Source of the DNA: Bacteroidales bacterium
GTDB lineage: Bacteria; Bacteroidota; Bacteroidia; Bacteroidales; UBA932
Length of the DNA stretch: 34,147 nucleotides
Direction of reading: 5' to 3'
NCBI GenBank assembly: GCA_017477245.1
Contig: JAFUWY010000022.1
Span: forward strand, 1 to 34,147
Below, one piece after another: positions 502 through 6,666 of this stretch. Under the pieces are notes generated by a model. It made no database searches, was not told where the DNA came from, and was given only the letters and a program-made list of their open reading frames with translations. The translations under genes and the position numbers were made by a program. The number at the start of each line of letters is the position of its first letter. Position 1 is the first letter of the stretch.

Positions 502-1767
502 TTAGTAAATGTAATATTTCCTGGACTTCTCCTTGAAAGCTTCGACGTCCGCGGACCAGAATCCGGAGATGTCGGAGACCTTCATCGTCTGTCCGAACTT
601 CTTACTGACAAAATCAGTGCCGCAAACTTTGTTGAACATCGAAAGTCGGTCGTTTGCGCCCGAAAAAGGATTCTTTTTGTAGAGTTCCCAGACGGCCTGC
701 ATCACGTAAAACTGTGTCAGTGTGATGGTTGCAGCTTCGAAGTCGGTATAGAAATATTGTACGCCGTGGATGAGCTTCCCGGCCAGCCGGCCGGAGATCG
801 GCTGGTAATGGATGGTGCGCCACGCCACGCCGGGGACGTGGTAGCTGTCGAGCTTGTCCTTGAGTTTGTCGGCATCCACCCACTGCTCCGCGAAGGTGGC
901 GAAGGGGAGGGTGTAGCCGATACCGATGTTGAGGTAGTTGTACATTTCGCCGCAGAGGCCGGCGGAAGGGTAGCAGATGGCCGTCTCGGCGTAGGGGATG
1001 TTGGGGGAAGGGAGGATCCAGGGCAGGCCGGTGTCGTTGAAGAGCATGTCGCGCTCCCAGCCTTCCATCGGCACGACCGTGAGCTTGCACTTGAGCGGCT
1101 CCAGTTTGCCGTTCTGGCCGCGGTTCATCCCCTCGTCGTTGATCATCCGGGCAAGCTCGCCGACGGTGAGGCCGTAGATGTAGGGGATCTTGTACTGGCT
1201 GACGAAGGAGTGGAACCCGTCCCGTACGAGGGAGCCCTCGACCTTGCGCCCGCCCAGCGGGTTCGGGCGGTCGAGCACCATCACCGGGATGCCCATCTCG
1301 GCGCAAGTGCGCATCACCAGGCCCAGCGTGGAGATGAACGTGTAGGACCGGCTGCCTACGTCCTGGATGTCGTAGACCATGATGTCGATGCCTTCGAGCA
1401 TCTTGCGGGTGGGCTGGCGCGTGTCGCCGTAGAGCGAATGCACGGGCAGGCCGGTGCGCTCGTCCCGGCCGGACTCGACCTTGCCGCCGGCCCAGATGTC
1501 GCCGCGCACGCCGTGCTCCGGCGCGTAGAGGGCCACGAGCTTGACGTTGGGCGCATCGTGGAGGATCTCGATGGTGGAGCGGAGCTGGCTGTCCACCCCG
1601 GAGGGGTTGGTGACCAGGCCGACGCGCTTGCCTTCCAGGCCTGCGAAATTGCGTTCCCGCAGGACTTCGATGCCGGGCTTGACCCGGGGGGCGGCCGCGG
1701 CGAGGGCGGCTACGAGGAGCAGCGCCGCCGCGCAAAGAATGTGACGAATACCGTTGCCAGACAACAT
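502..1767 (-). CDS. namZ: DUF1343 / NamZ-like exo-beta-N-acetylmuramidase, secreted
   Basis: 421 aa from the ATG at 1767, with a signal peptide (about residues 8-25, LCAAALLLVAALAAAA). Family landmarks are GKRVGLVTNPSGVD near the N-terminus, ALYAPEHGVRG with the conserved PEHG, DIQDVGSRSYTFISTL and VLDRPNPLGG. NamZ (GH171) enzymes remove terminal MurNAc from peptidoglycan fragments; this family role is established knowledge, not shown here. The usual SxGRGT-PF segment appears instead as LNIGIGYTLPF, so this is a divergent subgroup. It is the last gene of the minus-strand operon and its start lies about 58 nt inside the upstream AmpG-like gene. The frame stays open upstream to 2313, but that extension is antisense-free overlap with the permease and lacks a signal peptide, so 1767 is preferred. 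Confidence 0.85.
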   Translation of the reverse strand: MLSGNGIRHILCAAALLLVAALAAAAPRVKPGIEVLRERNFAGLEGKRVGLVTNPSGVDSQLRSTIEILHDAPNVKLVALYAPEHGVRGDIWAGGKVESGRDERTGLPVHSLYGDTRQPTRKMLEGIDIMVYDIQDVGSRSYTFISTLGLVMRTCAEMGIPVMVLDRPNPLGGRKVEGSLVRDGFHSFVSQYKIPYIYGLTVGELARMINDEGMNRGQNGKLEPLKCKLTVVPMEGWERDMLFNDTGLPWILPSPNIPYAETAICYPSAGLCGEMYNYLNIGIGYTLPFATFAEQWVDADKLKDKLDSYHVPGVAWRTIHYQPISGRLAGKLIHGVQYFYTDFEAATITLTQFYVMQAVWELYKKNPFSGANDRLSMFNKVCGTDFVSKKFGQTMKVSDISGFWSADVEAFKEKSRKYYIY

Positions 1768-3014
1768 ACCATTACGACAATAAAGAATCCAACATAGCCG
1801 AGCCGCTCCTGCATCCAGCCGGCGAACAGGCCCGGGATCATCATCGACAGGGCCATGAAGGCCGTGCAGATGGCATAGTGGGAGGTCTTGAACTCCCCTT
1901 CGGAGAATTGCATCATGTAGAGCATGTAGGCGGTGAAGCCGAAGCCGTAGCCGAACTGGTCGACCGCCACGCAGAGGTAGATGACCCACAGCGCGGAAGG
2001 CTGCGTGGCCGCAAGGAAGAGATACACCGCGCAGGGCAGCGCCAGGGCCATGGACATCGGCCACATCGAGCGCCGGAGACCCATGCGGGCGGCGTAGAGC
2101 CCGCCGAGGATCCCGCCCACGGTCAGGGCGATCACGCCTACCGTGCCGTAGACCAGCCCGGACTGCGCCGTGCTGAGGCCGAGCCCGCCCGCTTCCGCCG
2201 GGTCGAGCAGGAAGGGGGTGAGCATCTTGACGGAGAACGCCTCCGGCAGGCGGTACAGCAACATGAAGATGATCGCCAGCCACACGCCGGTTTTTTGGAA
2301 AAACGTCACCCACGCCCGTCCGAATTCCCGGAAAATCCGTGCTGACTGCGTCCCGTCATTCACCTGCTTCCCGTCATTCGCCTGCTTCCCGTCATTCGCC
2401 GGCTTGACCGGCGAATCTCCTTCCGTCGCCGGCAGGAAGCGCCAGTGCCACAGGGTCACGAGCGCGAAGAGCACGGCGCAGGCGAGGAGGGTAATGCTCC
2501 AGGCGCGCGGGATGGCGCCGAGCCGCTCCTCGAGCACGCCGGCCAGCACCACGATCACGCCCTGGCCGAACACCGAGGCGATGCGGTAGAAGGTGCTGCG
2601 GATGCCCACGAAGGCCGCCTGCTGCTTCTGCTCCAGGGCGAGCATGTAGAAGCCGTCCGCGGCGATGTCGTGCGTCGCGGAGGCGAACGCGATCACGTAG
2701 AAGATGACGAGCTGCAGCCCGAAGGCGTCCGGGCTGACGCTGAGCGCCAGCCCGGCGAAGCCGGCCGTGCAGAGCGCCTGCATGAGCAGGATCCACCAGC
2801 GCTTGGTGCGGATCACGTCCACGAAGGGACTCCACAGCGGCTTGATCACCCACGGGAGATACAGCAGCGAGGTGTACATCGCGAGGTCGCCGTTGGACAT
2901 GCCCAGCCGCTTGAACATCGTCACCGAGATCACGTTGACGATGAAATAGGGGATGCCTTCGGCGAAATAGAGCGTCGGCACCCAGAACCAGGGGGATTTA
3001 TTCGAGCGTTGCAC
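1710..3014 (-). CDS. ampG: AmpG-like MFS permease (muropeptide/peptidoglycan-fragment uptake)
   Basis: 434 aa with about 12 hydrophobic segments spread over the whole length. The N-terminus WVPTLYFAEGIPYFIVN and the HDIAADGFYMLAL segment near residue 115 match the AmpG/PAT branch of the major facilitator superfamily, which brings GlcNAc-anhydroMurNAc fragments into the cytoplasm. The central cytoplasmic loop (residues about 201-223) carries an in-frame repeat encoding (K)Q(A/V)NDG hexapeptides, described separately. The start overlaps the end of the DUF4922-SpoIID gene by 17 nt and its own 3' end overlaps namZ, so all are probably co-translated. The substrate is inferred from family and neighbours; other sugars or peptides cannot be excluded. 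Confidence 0.82.
   Translation of the reverse strand: MQRSNKSPWFWVPTLYFAEGIPYFIVNVISVTMFKRLGMSNGDLAMYTSLLYLPWVIKPLWSPFVDVIRTKRWWILLMQALCTAGFAGLALSVSPDAFGLQLVIFYVIAFASATHDIAADGFYMLALEQKQQAAFVGIRSTFYRIASVFGQGVIVVLAGVLEERLGAIPRAWSITLLACAVLFALVTLWHWRFLPATEGDSPVKPANDGKQANDGKQVNDGTQSARIFREFGRAWVTFFQKTGVWLAIIFMLLYRLPEAFSVKMLTPFLLDPAEAGGLGLSTAQSGLVYGTVGVIALTVGGILGGLYAARMGLRRSMWPMSMALALPCAVYLFLAATQPSALWVIYLCVAVDQFGYGFGFTAYMLYMMQFSEGEFKTSHYAICTAFMALSMMIPGLFAGWMQERLGYVGFFIVVMVCCLATVFVTFFARRRCSS
2351..2420. repeat. Intragenic short repeat, 18-bp units plus terminal palindrome, inside the AmpG-like gene
   Basis: Two 18-bp units (tcccgtcattcrcctgct, 2351-2368 and 2369-2386) are followed by a longer unit from 2387 that ends in a palindrome (attcgccgg-cttga-ccggcgaat, 2395-2417) and the tail ctcc. 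On the minus strand it reads in frame as a hydrophilic loop between transmembrane segments 6 and 7. It is a diverged relative of the repeat at 5848-5938. Confidence 0.85.
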
Positions 3015-5064
3015 CGGGATAATAATGTTGCAGGATTTGACGGTAGGTGAAGCCGCGGTCGGCCATCACGGCGGCGCCGATCTGGCACAGGCCGACGCCG
3101 TGGCCCCAGCCGCGGCCGCGGAGGATCCACGCGCCGGCCGGGTCGCGCTCCGCCTCGAAGGCGGAACTCTTGAGGTGGGACGTGCTCAGCGCGCGGCGGA
3201 TCCGGAGCTCCTTGCCGATCACTTCGGTGTGCTTGCTGCCGACGATCCGCAGGTACTTGATGCGGCCGGACGGGCCGCGCTCCACGGCCTCCAGTGCCCG
3301 GATCTCCCCGAAATCGATGCCGGTCCGCTCCCGCACCAGCGCGGCGAGCTCCTCGGCGCCGTAGCGCACGGTCCAGTCGTGGAAGTCCCGGGTCGTCTGG
3401 TCGTAGTCGTTGAGGACCTGGCTCAGGACCGCGTCGTTCTCGCAGTCGCACCACGGGTCTTCGACGCTTTGCAGGTAGGGGTAGTCGACGTCCTCCCAGC
3501 AGGTGCTGAAGAGTTCGGTGCGGCCGCCGCAGCATTTGGAGTACCGCGTGTCGCAGAGGGCGCCGTCATAGCGGAGCACCTGTCCCCAGGTCTCGTCGAT
3601 GGCCGTGCGGACGTTGTCGCCCACGGCCATGGTGAGGCCTTGGTAGCGTTGGCAGTGATCATCCGCGCAAACATCGAAATGTTTGTGCGCAGAATGGTCG
3701 TGCATCCGGGCGAGGAGCCAGGAGCGGGAGATGACGGCGTGGGCCTTGAGCAGCTCGGGCGAGGCGCTGGCCTTCATCTCGGAGGAGATGACGCTGAGCA
3801 GGTAGTCCTCCATGCCCACGAGGTTGACGGCGCGCACCAGGTCGCCTTCGACGATGAATTTCAGGCCGCCGGCATACTTGAGCGTGCGTTTCTGCTCCCA
3901 GTGGAAGTCGATGCCGATCACCACGTCGTAGAGTACGAACGAGGGCTCCGCGAAAAGGGTGGAGCGGGTGATGGAGTCGAAGTAGAGCTCGTCGTAGAGC
4001 GTGCCGTTGTAGTCGATCTTGCCGTCGCACCAACGCACGCTCTGCGGGCCGGCGCCGTCGGAGATGATCTCGAAGCGGATCTCCTTCGCGGCGAGGATGC
4101 CCACGGACACGCGGGGCTGCGTGCGCGTGAGGCGCCACTGGATCATGTCCTCCTCGTGCCGGGGGATGGTCACTTCCTCGAGGATCCCTTCCAGTTGCGC
4201 GGCCGTGACCTTGTCGAAGTCCTCCCGGAAGGGGGCGACGAACACCCCGGCCATGTCGGCGGCACCGGGGCTGATGGTGAGATGGTCGGGGCCGGCGGCA
4301 TCGAAGTGGTGCGAGCGCTTGGCGGCGCGCATCACCACGAAGGCGCGCCACTCTTCACTCTTCTTGTAGGCGTAGAGATTGAACTTGGGCTCGGTCTCAT
4401 CCGGGCGGCGGTCCGTGCAGTCCAGCAGCTGGTAGAAGAGCTTGGTCAGCGATTTGGACGTCGTGGCCTTGAGGGCGAAGACGCCGCGGCAGTAGCCGGG
4501 ATATTTATATAAGGTGGCGTCCTTGACGGAGGCGAGGGGTGCTCCGGGCTCGTCCAGGAAAGCGTCGACGGCTTCTTCCAGGGGCAGCTTGTGCCGGGGC
4601 ACGGCCTGGAAATGCAGGTGGTCCGGCGCGGAGGCGCCGCTCTCCGGGCCGTTGTAGAAGACGGTCCAGTCAGTGTAGCGGGCGGCGAAGTCCAGCATGT
4701 CCGGCAGGTGGTGCCAGATGGCCTGGGGCAGGTGCCGGTCGCGGACGATCACCAGATGGTCGCGGAAGATGGGGAAGGGGTTGACCTGGACGTTGTACAG
4801 GCGTCCCTTGCGCCCTTCGAACTTGATGTGCCGCTGCTCCGGGGGGCGGTTGTCCTCGCACAGGAAGCAGGGGCGCGCGGCGATGGCCTCCGGCGAGGTG
4901 TCGGCGGTCGACGAGCCGGCGCGCTCGGGGTTGAACTGTACGGAGCAGGGGAGGCCGCAGACCGTCAGGTGCTTGGTCCTGACGGACTTGAGTGCCCGGA
5001 AATTGGCCGCTGCGAGCGGCCACACGGACAGCTGGTCCTTGATGAATTTTCGCAGTTCTTGCAT
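2998..5064 (-). CDS. DUF4922 (HIT/GalT-like) - SpoIID/LytB fusion protein
   Basis: 688 aa without a signal peptide or transmembrane segment. Residues about 1-310 resemble DUF4922, with PCFLCEDNRPP (Cys66, Cys69) and SAPDHLHFQAVPR carrying an HxHxQ signature (His149, His151, Gln153) like that of GalT, Ap4A phosphorylase and GDP-hexose phosphorylase. Residues about 320-688 are a SpoIID/LytB domain: SSEMKASASPELLKAHAVISR holds the Glu (about 429) corresponding to the catalytic residue of SpoIID lytic transglycosylase, and the C-terminus has GRGWGHGVGLCQIGA. Its ATG shares one base with the upstream Nudix stop (TAATG). The context (AmpG, NamZ) points to peptidoglycan fragments as substrate. Whether the SpoIID domain works in the cytoplasm is inference. 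Confidence 0.85.
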   Translation of the reverse strand: MQELRKFIKDQLSVWPLAAANFRALKSVRTKHLTVCGLPCSVQFNPERAGSSTADTSPEAIAARPCFLCEDNRPPEQRHIKFEGRKGRLYNVQVNPFPIFRDHLVIVRDRHLPQAIWHHLPDMLDFAARYTDWTVFYNGPESGASAPDHLHFQAVPRHKLPLEEAVDAFLDEPGAPLASVKDATLYKYPGYCRGVFALKATTSKSLTKLFYQLLDCTDRRPDETEPKFNLYAYKKSEEWRAFVVMRAAKRSHHFDAAGPDHLTISPGAADMAGVFVAPFREDFDKVTAAQLEGILEEVTIPRHEEDMIQWRLTRTQPRVSVGILAAKEIRFEIISDGAGPQSVRWCDGKIDYNGTLYDELYFDSITRSTLFAEPSFVLYDVVIGIDFHWEQKRTLKYAGGLKFIVEGDLVRAVNLVGMEDYLLSVISSEMKASASPELLKAHAVISRSWLLARMHDHSAHKHFDVCADDHCQRYQGLTMAVGDNVRTAIDETWGQVLRYDGALCDTRYSKCCGGRTELFSTCWEDVDYPYLQSVEDPWCDCENDAVLSQVLNDYDQTTRDFHDWTVRYGAEELAALVRERTGIDFGEIRALEAVERGPSGRIKYLRIVGSKHTEVIGKELRIRRALSTSHLKSSAFEAERDPAGAWILRGRGWGHGVGLCQIGAAVMADRGFTYRQILQHYYPGATLE

Positions 5065-5636
5065 TACAGCAGGGCTTGCAGCATATCTTTGATGCGGGCG
5101 TATTCGCCCTCGAAATTCGGGGTGAGGATCCCTTTGCCGTACGCCTGGTCGATCTCTTCCGGGGTCCAGAACCGGCCCCCGGCGAGCTCGTCCGGATCGG
5201 GGCGGATCTCATATTCGCCCACGGCGGCGAACACGCTCACGAACTCGCGCTCGCTGTCCGACTCGTAGATGTAGGAGCAGAGGCCGTGCGGGAGGAAATC
5301 GTGGAGGTGCAGCTCCTCGTCGGATTCGCGGTAGAGGGCCTCCTGGATGTATTCGCCATAAGAGACATGCCCGCCGACGGCGGTGTCCCAGCGGAGCGGG
5401 AGGAGGTCCTTGTGCGCGCCGCGCTGCTGGAGGTAGATGTTGCCGCAGCGGTTGATGATGTGGAGGTGGACGACCGGGTGCAGCGGCTTGTCCGCATGGT
5501 GATGCACGCGGTCGCGGGCGGCCTGGGCGATGACGTTGCCGTACTCGTCGATGACCGGCAGCATCTCCACGGCCTTGGCGCGCCGGCCGCCCCTGAGGAG
5601 CGGCGCCGGGGAAGCGGGATAGATCAGCTCAAGCAA
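5064..5636 (-). CDS. Nudix hydrolase (isopentenyl-diphosphate isomerase-like subgroup)
   Basis: 190 aa if the TTG at 5636 is used, or 166 aa from the ATG at 5564 (MLPVIDEYGN). The Nudix box is GGHVSYGEYIQEALYRESDE followed by ELHL, matching GX5EX7REUXEE with His in place of the usual Gly near the end. HPVVHLHIINRCGNIYLQQR and LRWDTAVGGH are typical of the IDI-type Nudix proteins common in Bacteroidetes. The ATG at 5564 matches where homologues usually begin, but the TTG start sits 4 nt after the upstream stop and its codons look coding, so the start is unresolved. Substrate is not predictable; nucleotide-sugar or dinucleotide cleavage would fit the neighbouring HIT-like domain. Confidence 0.85.
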   Translation of the reverse strand: MLELIYPASPAPLLRGGRRAKAVEMLPVIDEYGNVIAQAARDRVHHHADKPLHPVVHLHIINRCGNIYLQQRGAHKDLLPLRWDTAVGGHVSYGEYIQEALYRESDEELHLHDFLPHGLCSYIYESDSEREFVSVFAAVGEYEIRPDPDELAGGRFWTPEEIDQAYGKGILTPNFEGEYARIKDMLQALL

Positions 5637-5640
5637 GGCG

Positions 5641-6444
5641 TCAGTAGTTTATGATCCGTAATTCTTCGGGGGTATACAGGATGGAGTCGATGAAGTCCGG
5701 GGCGACGCGGGCGAGGATCATGAACACGGCCAGCGCGACCACGACCACGCCGACGGTGGCGACCACCGGGATCCACCAGCGGAAATGCTTCTCGCTGCGG
5801 GATCCTTCGATTGTCTCCGGTTTTACCTCCTGCACGGGCTGCCCGGCGTCATTCCGGGCTTGACCTACGTCATTCCGGGCTTGACCTACGTCATTCCGGG
5901 CTTGACCTACGTCATTCCGGGCTTGACCCGGAATCTCCTTCTCCTTCTCCGGCTCCGGCTCGGGCTCGGGCTTCGGAATCGGGATCGGAACGTTGATGAC
6001 CACCGGGTCGTCATACTGCATCGTATGGCTCTTGAGCGAGACCGGCCGCAGGCCGATGCCGCCCGGGAAGATGTCCAGCCCCTCTTCGGGGACGAAGAAG
6101 ATGGCGTTCTCGCGCGTGGCGCGCAGGCGGCCCAGCCCCGGCAGCACAATGGTCTTGCGGACTTCCAGCACGGACTTCATCTCCGCAAGGAACTGCGTGA
6201 TGTAGGCGGCGGCCGTCTCCCGGGGGATGGGGTTCGAGGAGGCGTAGAGGTCGATCAGAAGTTGGTCTTCCAGGCATTTGGGACTGAAAGAAAGACGCCG
6301 GTAGGGAGGATTGATGGTGAAGCCCTTGTCGGAGAAGGACGCCGGGACCATCTCGGCAACGAACGTGCCGACCCCGGGCAGTCCCACCTGGTCGTGCCCG
6401 ACGATCAGTTCACCTACCATCCGTGACAGAAGATCGATATCCAT
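5641..6444 (-). CDS. HU/CCDC81-like domain protein with C-terminal membrane anchor
   Basis: 267 aa from the ATG at 6444. Residues about 1-120 hold two HU-like units: MDIDLLSRMVGELIVGHDQVGLPGVGTFVAE and ETAAAYITQFLAEMKSVLEVRKTIVLPGLGRL, the pattern of Bacteroidetes HU-CCDC81 proteins. A linker rich in Pro-Glu (PIPIPKPEPEPEPE) leads into four GQARNDV repeats, then one transmembrane helix (WWIPVVATVGVVVVALAVF, about 223-244) and a short tail. Related proteins often carry a SPOR domain, which is missing here. It heads the operon under the promoter at 6451-6481. A TTG at 6453 would extend it by three codons, but that TTG is part of the -7 box and cannot be transcribed. A link to envelope or septal peptidoglycan is inferred from family and neighbours. 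Confidence 0.8.
   Translation of the reverse strand: MDIDLLSRMVGELIVGHDQVGLPGVGTFVAEMVPASFSDKGFTINPPYRRLSFSPKCLEDQLLIDLYASSNPIPRETAAAYITQFLAEMKSVLEVRKTIVLPGLGRLRATRENAIFFVPEEGLDIFPGGIGLRPVSLKSHTMQYDDPVVINVPIPIPKPEPEPEPEKEKEIPGQARNDVGQARNDVGQARNDVGQARNDAGQPVQEVKPETIEGSRSEKHFRWWIPVVATVGVVVVALAVFMILARVAPDFIDSILYTPEELRIINY
5848..5938. repeat. Intragenic short repeat, 21-bp units plus terminal palindrome, in the HU-like gene
   Basis: Three perfect 21-bp copies (gtcattccgggcttgaccta + c) at 5848-5868, 5869-5889 and 5890-5910 are followed by a terminal unit 5911-5938 in which attccggg-cttga-cccggaat forms a hairpin. The unit length is a multiple of three, so on the minus strand it encodes tandem GQARNDV in the linker of the membrane-anchored HU-like protein. 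No spacers are present, so it is not a CRISPR. Confidence 0.93.
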
Positions 6445-6450
6445 AACATA

Positions 6451-6482
6451 CAAAGGTAATCAATCTTGCCAAAACTGGCAAG
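6451..6482 (-). promoter_or_regulatory. Promoter of the HU/Nudix/SpoIID/AmpG/NamZ operon with overlapping inverted repeat
   Basis: On the minus strand TTG (6481-6479), 20 nt, TACCTTTG (6458-6451) forms a Bacteroidetes promoter. A perfect inverted repeat cttgcca-aaac-tggcaag (6465-6482) covers the TTG and part of the spacer, the position expected of an operator. Only 6 nt separate the -7 box from the ATG at 6444, so the mRNA should be leaderless or nearly so. Confidence 0.7.
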
Positions 6483-6527
6483 ACCCCTCCCGATTGAAAA
6501 ATTATCTCGAAAAAAACGCGAAAATTT

Positions 6528-6589: not shown

Positions 6590-6666
6590 TCCTCTTTAGC
6601 TCAGTTGGTTAGAGCACCTGACTGTTAATCAGGGGGTCCTAGGTTCAAGTCCTAGAAGGGGAGCCA
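6590..6666 (+). tRNA. tRNA-Asn (GTT)
   Basis: The cloverleaf is complete. The acceptor stem tcctctt/aagggga (6590-6596 with 6656-6662) has one G-T pair. The anticodon arm is cctga-ctGTTaa-tcagg (6617-6633) with anticodon GTT at 6624-6626. The T arm is ctagg-ttcaagt-cctag (6639-6655). The discriminator is G6663 and CCA is encoded at 6664-6666. Confidence 0.97.

Follow-up and report, generated by a model that had tools for sequence, protein, structure and literature searches.

A fusion of DUF4922 and SpoIID domains beside AmpG and NamZ in a Bacteroidales genome, with a candidate role in cytoplasmic peptidoglycan recycling

Described recycling systems and the fusion protein

Operons for AmpG-dependent peptidoglycan recycling are already known in the Bacteroidales. 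In Tannerella forsythia, reverse-transcription PCR places Tanf_08345-08385 on one transcript encoding a xanthane lyase, two glycosyltransferases (gtf), lytB, ampG, ybbC, murT, murK and murQ, of which lytB is annotated 'amidase enhancer precursor' (PMC5388701). Growth of this organism on N-acetylglucosaminyl-1,6-anhydro-N-acetylmuramic acid (GlcNAc-anhMurNAc) requires AmpG, whose named substrates are disaccharides whose reducing-end residue is N-acetylmuramic acid (MurNAc) or anhMurNAc; no AnmK is predicted there, and the authors regard the processing of AmpG-imported fragments as an important open question (PMC7670621). The stretch analysed here (the window, 34,147 nucleotides) is contig C18 in a 96% complete Bacteroidales genome of 2.38 Mb, and on its minus strand five genes, encoding in order an HU-like protein, a Nudix hydrolase, a fusion of a DUF4922 domain to a complete SpoIID domain, an AmpG-like permease and NamZ, form a run that is a variant of the operon known from T. 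forsythia (lytB-ampG-ybbC with murTKQ, PMC5388701). We suggest that the fusion may perform the task which, in Escherichia coli, Pseudomonas and Caulobacter, falls to the unrelated protein AnmK, that is, the entry of imported anhMurNAc into metabolism (PMC13046382).

The window operon differs from that of T. forsythia in having neither a GT2 glycosyltransferase orthologue (the window genome has none) nor MurQ; Nudix and HU-like genes precede the fusion instead. Another locus (L212, genome G561) shows the nine-gene order of T. forsythia, after one more NamZ, and its first three genes encode a golvesin/amidase-like protein, a GT2 and a DUF4922 protein, which we infer to correspond to the xanthane lyase and the two gtf products. 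In the available parts of PMC5388701 and PMC7670621 the lytB and gtf genes of the ampG operon are not studied and no substitute for AnmK is proposed, and the literature searched yielded no cytoplasmic SpoIID clade with fusion to an Apa2-like enzyme. The preliminary description of this DNA had envisaged a new recycling route; the operon type itself has a precedent in T. forsythia (PMC5388701).

Both halves of the fusion protein are recognised over curated cut-offs, DUF4922 (PF16269) at 174 bits (2e-51; cut-off 23.6) and SpoIID by PF08486 at 86 bits (3e-24; cut-off 23) and TIGR02669 at 190 bits (9e-56; cut-off 83). The protein stays below the cut-off of the sporulation equivalog TIGR02870 (145 of 235 bits) and below the curated one of the diadenosine tetraphosphate (Ap4A) phosphorylase domain PF19327 (21.9 against 23.1 bits), and the AnmK domain PF03702 is absent from its Pfam matches. 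In an AlphaFold2 model (predicted local distance difference test, pLDDT, 90; predicted template modelling score, pTM, 0.83) residues 1-306 adopt the Apa2 fold, the closest being yeast Apa2 (4i5t) at 18-19% identity, and residues 314-688 that of a complete SpoIID lytic transglycosylase. The first domain shares with Apa2 both the fold and the HxHxQ motif (H149-L-H151-F-Q153) by which an Ap4A phosphorylase is recognised; it differs in its linkage to peptidoglycan recycling. The DUF4922 superfamily is also where plant GDP-L-galactose phosphorylase (GGP) has been placed (PMC11047344).

The second domain has the whole fold and the catalytic Glu in common with SpoIID/LytB proteins of Clostridioides difficile (5i1t), Bacillus anthracis (4rwr) and Waddlia, its Glu aligning with those of 5i1t and 4rwr and its Cys/His cluster with that of 5i1t. 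Glu429 is conserved in 172 of 172 aligned rows and C466, H470 and C471 are nearly invariant; almost all aligned homologues (157-173 rows) retain these residues and HxHxQ. We take the roles of the Glu and the Cys/His residues to be those known from work on SpoIID. In Bacillus subtilis SpoIID the residue named is E88 (PMC6635528). Profile matches, model and alignment thus agree with the preliminary description, which had proposed an HxHxQ-SpoIID fusion retaining a Glu at about position 429 and had asked for a structure prediction of both domains.

The loop before the Cys/His cluster (fusion residues ~452-462) varies from 7 to 61 residues across the homologue rows listed (L053-L130, L185), and in many of them contains a segment of RWYDREDH or KWFDHDDH type with a His at constant distance from the Cys; the window fusion and its nearest relatives are without it. 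Fusion matches with one to three in-frame stops occur in three genomes of the same genus (L012, L013 and L023, in G018, G006 and G019 respectively), and are either pseudogenes or assembly errors.

Type-C SpoIID proteins and their distribution with AmpG and AnmK

In a quick tree of 116 rows a fully supported branch divides SpoIID proteins into two types, of which the DUF4922-linked one is here called type C. Signal-peptide-like starts, as scored by a plain hydrophobicity threshold and not a trained predictor, were seen in none of 74 scorable standalone type-C SpoIIDs (77 rows, 75 distinct, three without a usable Met) and in none of 147 DUF4922 proteins, against 17 of 21 proteins of the other type (L192, the 22nd row, is a truncated type-C fusion). 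The window fusion has no such start either, and so lacks the mark of export that belongs to SpoIID/LytB; the N-terminus of NamZ is signal-peptide-like as judged by eye. Type C also differs from SpoIID/LytB in being fused to, or in an operon with, nucleotide-type enzymes beside AmpG. Since GT2 and Apa2-like domains belong to nucleotide-using families, fusion to them supports a cytoplasmic location, and with the missing signal peptides it leads us to infer from sequence that type-C SpoIID proteins are cytoplasmic. That a cytoplasmic SpoIID might act on imported fragments beside a nucleotide-type enzyme had been suggested before, and these starts and fusions favour it, as do the conserved residues and the constant company of AmpG described below.

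An order-wide sample of 295 Bacteroidales genomes included 77 with a DUF4922 match, one of which (G472) was weak and was dropped, leaving 76. SpoIID of any type is found in all 76, compared with 100 of the 219 others; type C was seen directly in 75, and in the remaining genome (G437) the fusion gene is ended by a contig end. Among the 100 SpoIID genomes without DUF4922, 21 were typed and three have type C. AmpG, called by TIGR00901 at E <= 0.001, is matched in 76/76 DUF4922 genomes and 41/219 others. The curated cut-off of this model (350 bits) is reached in none of the 295 genomes, the window AmpG also falling below it, and looks too strict for Bacteroidales, because AmpG of T. forsythia is functional in E. 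coli (PMC5388701).

The distribution of AnmK, a connection absent from the preliminary description, is nearly the reverse. It occurs in 194 of the 295 genomes, in 11/76 with DUF4922 and 183/219 without (odds ratio 0.033, P 1e-27); by family majority the figures are 4 of 27 DUF4922 families and 73 of 82 others, and P did not exceed 1.2e-6 in any of 2000 draws of one random genome from each family. The 117 AmpG genomes comprise 65 with DUF4922 only, 30 with AnmK only, 11 with both and 11 with neither, so that 106 have AnmK or DUF4922. The window genome has no AnmK match, at 96% completeness, and only a weak match to the MurQ model (E 8e-9). It does encode a NagZ-like GH3 protein (L283), which has no signal-peptide-like start and looks cytoplasmic, and an AmgK-like kinase (L281, E 2e-12), neither of which reaches its equivalog cut-off. 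With these two present and AnmK absent, ring opening from anhMurNAc to MurNAc is a visible gap.

Proposed role and alternatives

We consider it very probable that type-C SpoIID and DUF4922 form a unit with a cytoplasmic recycling role, and tentatively propose that its SpoIID opens the ring of anhMurNAc in place of AnmK. NamZ would trim fragments in the periplasm and AmpG would import (GlcNAc-)anhMurNAc and GlcNAc-MurNAc fragments into the cytoplasm, where SpoIID would bind anhMurNAc, the product of the normal lytic transglycosylase reaction, and open the 1,6-anhydro ring onto water or another acceptor, to produce MurNAc itself, its glycoside or its phosphate. The released MurNAc or adduct would pass to AmgK/MurU or MurK/MurQ, and the SpoIID would in this way stand in for AnmK, absent from the window genome and most DUF4922 genomes. 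The Apa2/GGP-like DUF4922 domain would take charge of the nucleotide or sugar-phosphate part of this reaction sequence, its substrate being presumably a nucleoside phosphate and perhaps a nucleotide sugar, with the GT2 glycosyltransferase as a further partner in most relatives though not in the window genome; the order of these steps is likewise a suggestion. The SpoIID of Waddlia is a lytic transglycosylase on sacculi, and on denuded glycans gives mainly non-anhydro products, that is, muramidase activity, which implies that the fold can take water as acceptor (PMC6635528). The unit, whether as three clustered genes or one fused protein, is a conserved candidate for the AnmK gap; if confirmed, a cytoplasmic member of a lytic transglycosylase family would act on what its own kind produces, and DUF4922 would gain a role in the Bacteroidales.

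Several observations weigh against ring opening by SpoIID. To our knowledge no enzyme of the type-C clade has been assayed, and we know of no lytic transglycosylase that opens anhydroMurNAc. In the Waddlia study the SpoIID of B. subtilis gave no non-anhydro products (PMC6635528), and T. forsythia grows poorly on free anhMurNAc (PMC7670621). The AnmK contrast lies between families: within 12 mixed families AnmK is present in 7/23 DUF4922 genomes and 10/22 others, and a within-family test finds no association (Mantel-Haenszel odds ratio 0.67, z -0.28), so that it could reflect few independent losses or a clade effect. As 153 of the 183 AnmK-only genomes are without AmpG, the two groups differ by more than the ring-opening step. 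DUF4922 and AnmK coexist in eleven genomes, and 11 of the 117 with AmpG have neither. Nor does DUF4922 appear always to be needed, since two AmpG genomes without AnmK or DUF4922 nevertheless have a type-C SpoIID (G408, G535), and another (G488) has type-C SpoIID, GT2, AmpG and AnmK with no DUF4922 match. Finally, ring opening does not explain the need for GT2 and DUF4922.

The absence of a within-family association and the rarity of AmpG among AnmK-only genomes would both follow if the AnmK contrast were a clade effect and the module a recycling accessory, for instance with GT2 and DUF4922 releasing or phosphorolysing GlcNAc and SpoIID as a binding or regulatory partner, as its old annotation of 'amidase enhancer' might imply. 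We think this unlikely, because the invariance of Glu429 and near-invariance of the Cys/His cluster point to catalysis, and because T. forsythia uses GlcNAc-anhMurNAc with no predicted AnmK (PMC7670621). If SpoIID is catalytic, it could instead cut MurNAc-GlcNAc bonds in oligosaccharides, whether imported or newly synthesised, and leave ring opening to an unrecognised enzyme. Such an activity would suit the conservation of the catalytic residues and what is known of the fold, which acts both as a lytic transglycosylase and as a muramidase (PMC6635528), but the disaccharides named as AmpG substrates in T. forsythia hold no MurNAc-GlcNAc bond (PMC7670621) and the missing AnmK step would stay unfilled; we judge it possible, if somewhat unlikely.

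It is improbable, in our view, that DUF4922 serves as a metabolically unconnected housekeeping phosphorylase of Ap4A or NDP-sugars, fused to SpoIID merely as a result of operon adjacency. Yeast Apa2 is its closest fold and standalone DUF4922 proteins occur in other classes of the phylum, but in Bacteroidales type-C SpoIID accompanies it in 76/76 genomes, even where the genes lie apart, and AmpG is equally constant. An extension of ring opening by SpoIID would assign DUF4922 a definite step: SpoIID would open (GlcNAc-)anhMurNAc onto a phosphate or sugar acceptor, and the Apa2/GGP-like domain, by exchange with a nucleoside diphosphate, would turn the product into a nucleotide sugar, for example UDP-MurNAc, conserving the energy of the anhydro bond. 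We regard this as highly speculative; if true, it would be an ATP-sparing recycling that bypasses AnmK, AmgK and MurU, with a lytic transglycosylase reversed inside the cell.

Gene order, promoter region and neighbouring features

The preliminary description had five genes overlapping or nearly touching, and indeed the HU-like and Nudix genes are separated by 4 nt, while the Nudix gene overlaps the fusion by 1 nt, the fusion overlaps AmpG by 17 nt and AmpG overlaps NamZ by 58 nt (Table 1; the NamZ start is our choice). It had also put the fusion between NamZ and AmpG, when it is AmpG that lies between the fusion and NamZ. NamZ itself has both its domains over cut-off (NamZ_N 280 bits, NamZ_C 107 bits) and an N-terminus that looks like that of an exported protein.

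Table 1. Features of the five-gene run, in window coordinates.
Feature	Position	Strand	Remarks
Candidate -7 element TACCTTTG, presumed TAnnTTTG type	6451..6458	-	directly before HU-like gene; from sequence
HU-CCDC81-like protein, 267 aa	5641..6444	-	first gene of run; both HU-CCDC81 domains (1 and 2) matched, PF18175 and PF18174 over cut-off; C-terminal hydrophobic segment
Nudix hydrolase, 190 aa, YfcD/IPP-isomerase-like	5064..5636	-	PF00293 4e-12; PRK15393 1e-17, below cut-off
DUF4922-SpoIID fusion, 688 aa, predicted cytoplasmic	2998..5064	-	profile matches and AlphaFold2 model
DUF4922, Ap4A-phosphorylase (Apa2)-like domain, residues 1-306	4147..5064	-	HxHxQ = H149, H151, Q153
Complete SpoIID domain, residues 314-688	3001..4125	-	Glu429 and Cys466/His470/Cys471 cluster
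AmpG-like muropeptide permease (major facilitator superfamily), 434 aa	1710..3014	-	TIGR00901 6e-53, 180 bits against cut-off 350
NamZ exo-beta-N-acetylmuramidase, 421 aa	502..1767	-	PF07075 1.5e-83 and PF20732 1.6e-30, both over cut-off

Among the closest named relatives of the window genome are metagenome-assembled genomes of uncultured Bacteroidales and Candidatus Cryptobacteroides. Conservation of order was followed in 62 related loci with the fusion, many of them from close relatives, counting same-strand genes at loci with enough flank. Downstream of the fusion, 56 of 57 loci have an AmpG start within 1.5 kb and 48 of 49 a NamZ start within 3 kb; upstream, 46 of 52 have Nudix no more than 1.2 kb away and 36 of 47 have HU no more than 2.5 kb away. 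Such conserved neighbours indicate that the run is not due to chance. At two loci (L103, L104) AmpG and NamZ lie apart from the fusion and on the other strand, with Nudix still directly upstream of it, and in some relatives Nudix may therefore be tied more closely than AmpG to the fusion.

Across the order, within the stretches fetched round DUF4922 and with fused forms included, a DUF4922-SpoIID-AmpG run is found in 48/76 genomes and GT2-DUF4922-SpoIID-AmpG in 45/76; GT2 adjoins DUF4922 in 64/76 and SpoIID does so in 53/76, and AmpG directly follows SpoIID (<500 nt) in 54/76. No same-strand SpoIID lies within 9 kb of DUF4922 in 21/76, where some stretches were ended by contig ends, and MurT, MurK and MurQ are also in the fetched stretch in ten genomes. 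By contrast, Nudix and HU (the latter within 9 kb) accompany DUF4922 in only 2/76 genomes, both of the window's genus (G000 and G336). Of the gene run in the preliminary description, the DUF4922-SpoIID-AmpG part thus recurs across the order, while Nudix and HU were found near DUF4922 only in the genus of the window and the usual partner is GT2. None of the three findings that the description had named as refuting it (homologues with a clear signal peptide, loss of HxHxQ or the SpoIID Glu in most homologues, no co-occurrence with namZ/ampG elsewhere) emerged, as far as the analysis could look for them.

GT2, DUF4922 and SpoIID are unfused in 65/76 genomes, and the halves of the fusion are separate neighbouring genes in other Bacteroidales, often with GT2 upstream (e.g. 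L044, L045, L113, L114, L121, L129). Fused forms occur in 11/76, spread over several lineages: DUF4922 with SpoIID in four, GT2 with DUF4922 in five and all three in two. Further loci carry three-way fusions (L115-L117) and GT2-DUF4922 fusions (L118-L120, L122-L124, L127, L128, L130), and from this distribution fusion looks like a derived state. Structures matched by a model of GT2-DUF4922 (pLDDT 83.5, pTM 0.66) include K4 chondroitin polymerase, TarS and TarP. Elsewhere in the phylum, other classes have DUF4922 as a standalone frame about 290-390 aa long (e.g. G110, G276, G106), and the control genomes of Synechococcus elongatus and Lactococcus lactis also have DUF4922 matches.

The element TACCTTTG, which we take to belong to the TAnnTTTG class of motifs, is on sequence grounds a plausible candidate for a single promoter of the whole run. 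A stem-loop lies upstream of it at 6462-6485 and a weak sigma-70-type match at 6472-6445; promoter-like matches number 3 against 1.1 in shuffles, and terminator-like matches 1 against 3.7. Just upstream of the run and divergent from it is a tRNA-Asn gene (plus strand, 6590-6666). Within the HU-like gene there are 3.9 perfect tandem copies of a 21-bp unit (CGTCATTCCGGGCTTGACCTA), running into the palindromic CATTCCGGGCTTGACCCGGAATCTC (5847-5928), and the coding sequence of AmpG holds 3.3 tandem copies of an 18-bp unit sharing CGTCATTC (2346-2405); both repeats may derive from a dispersed intragenic palindromic element.

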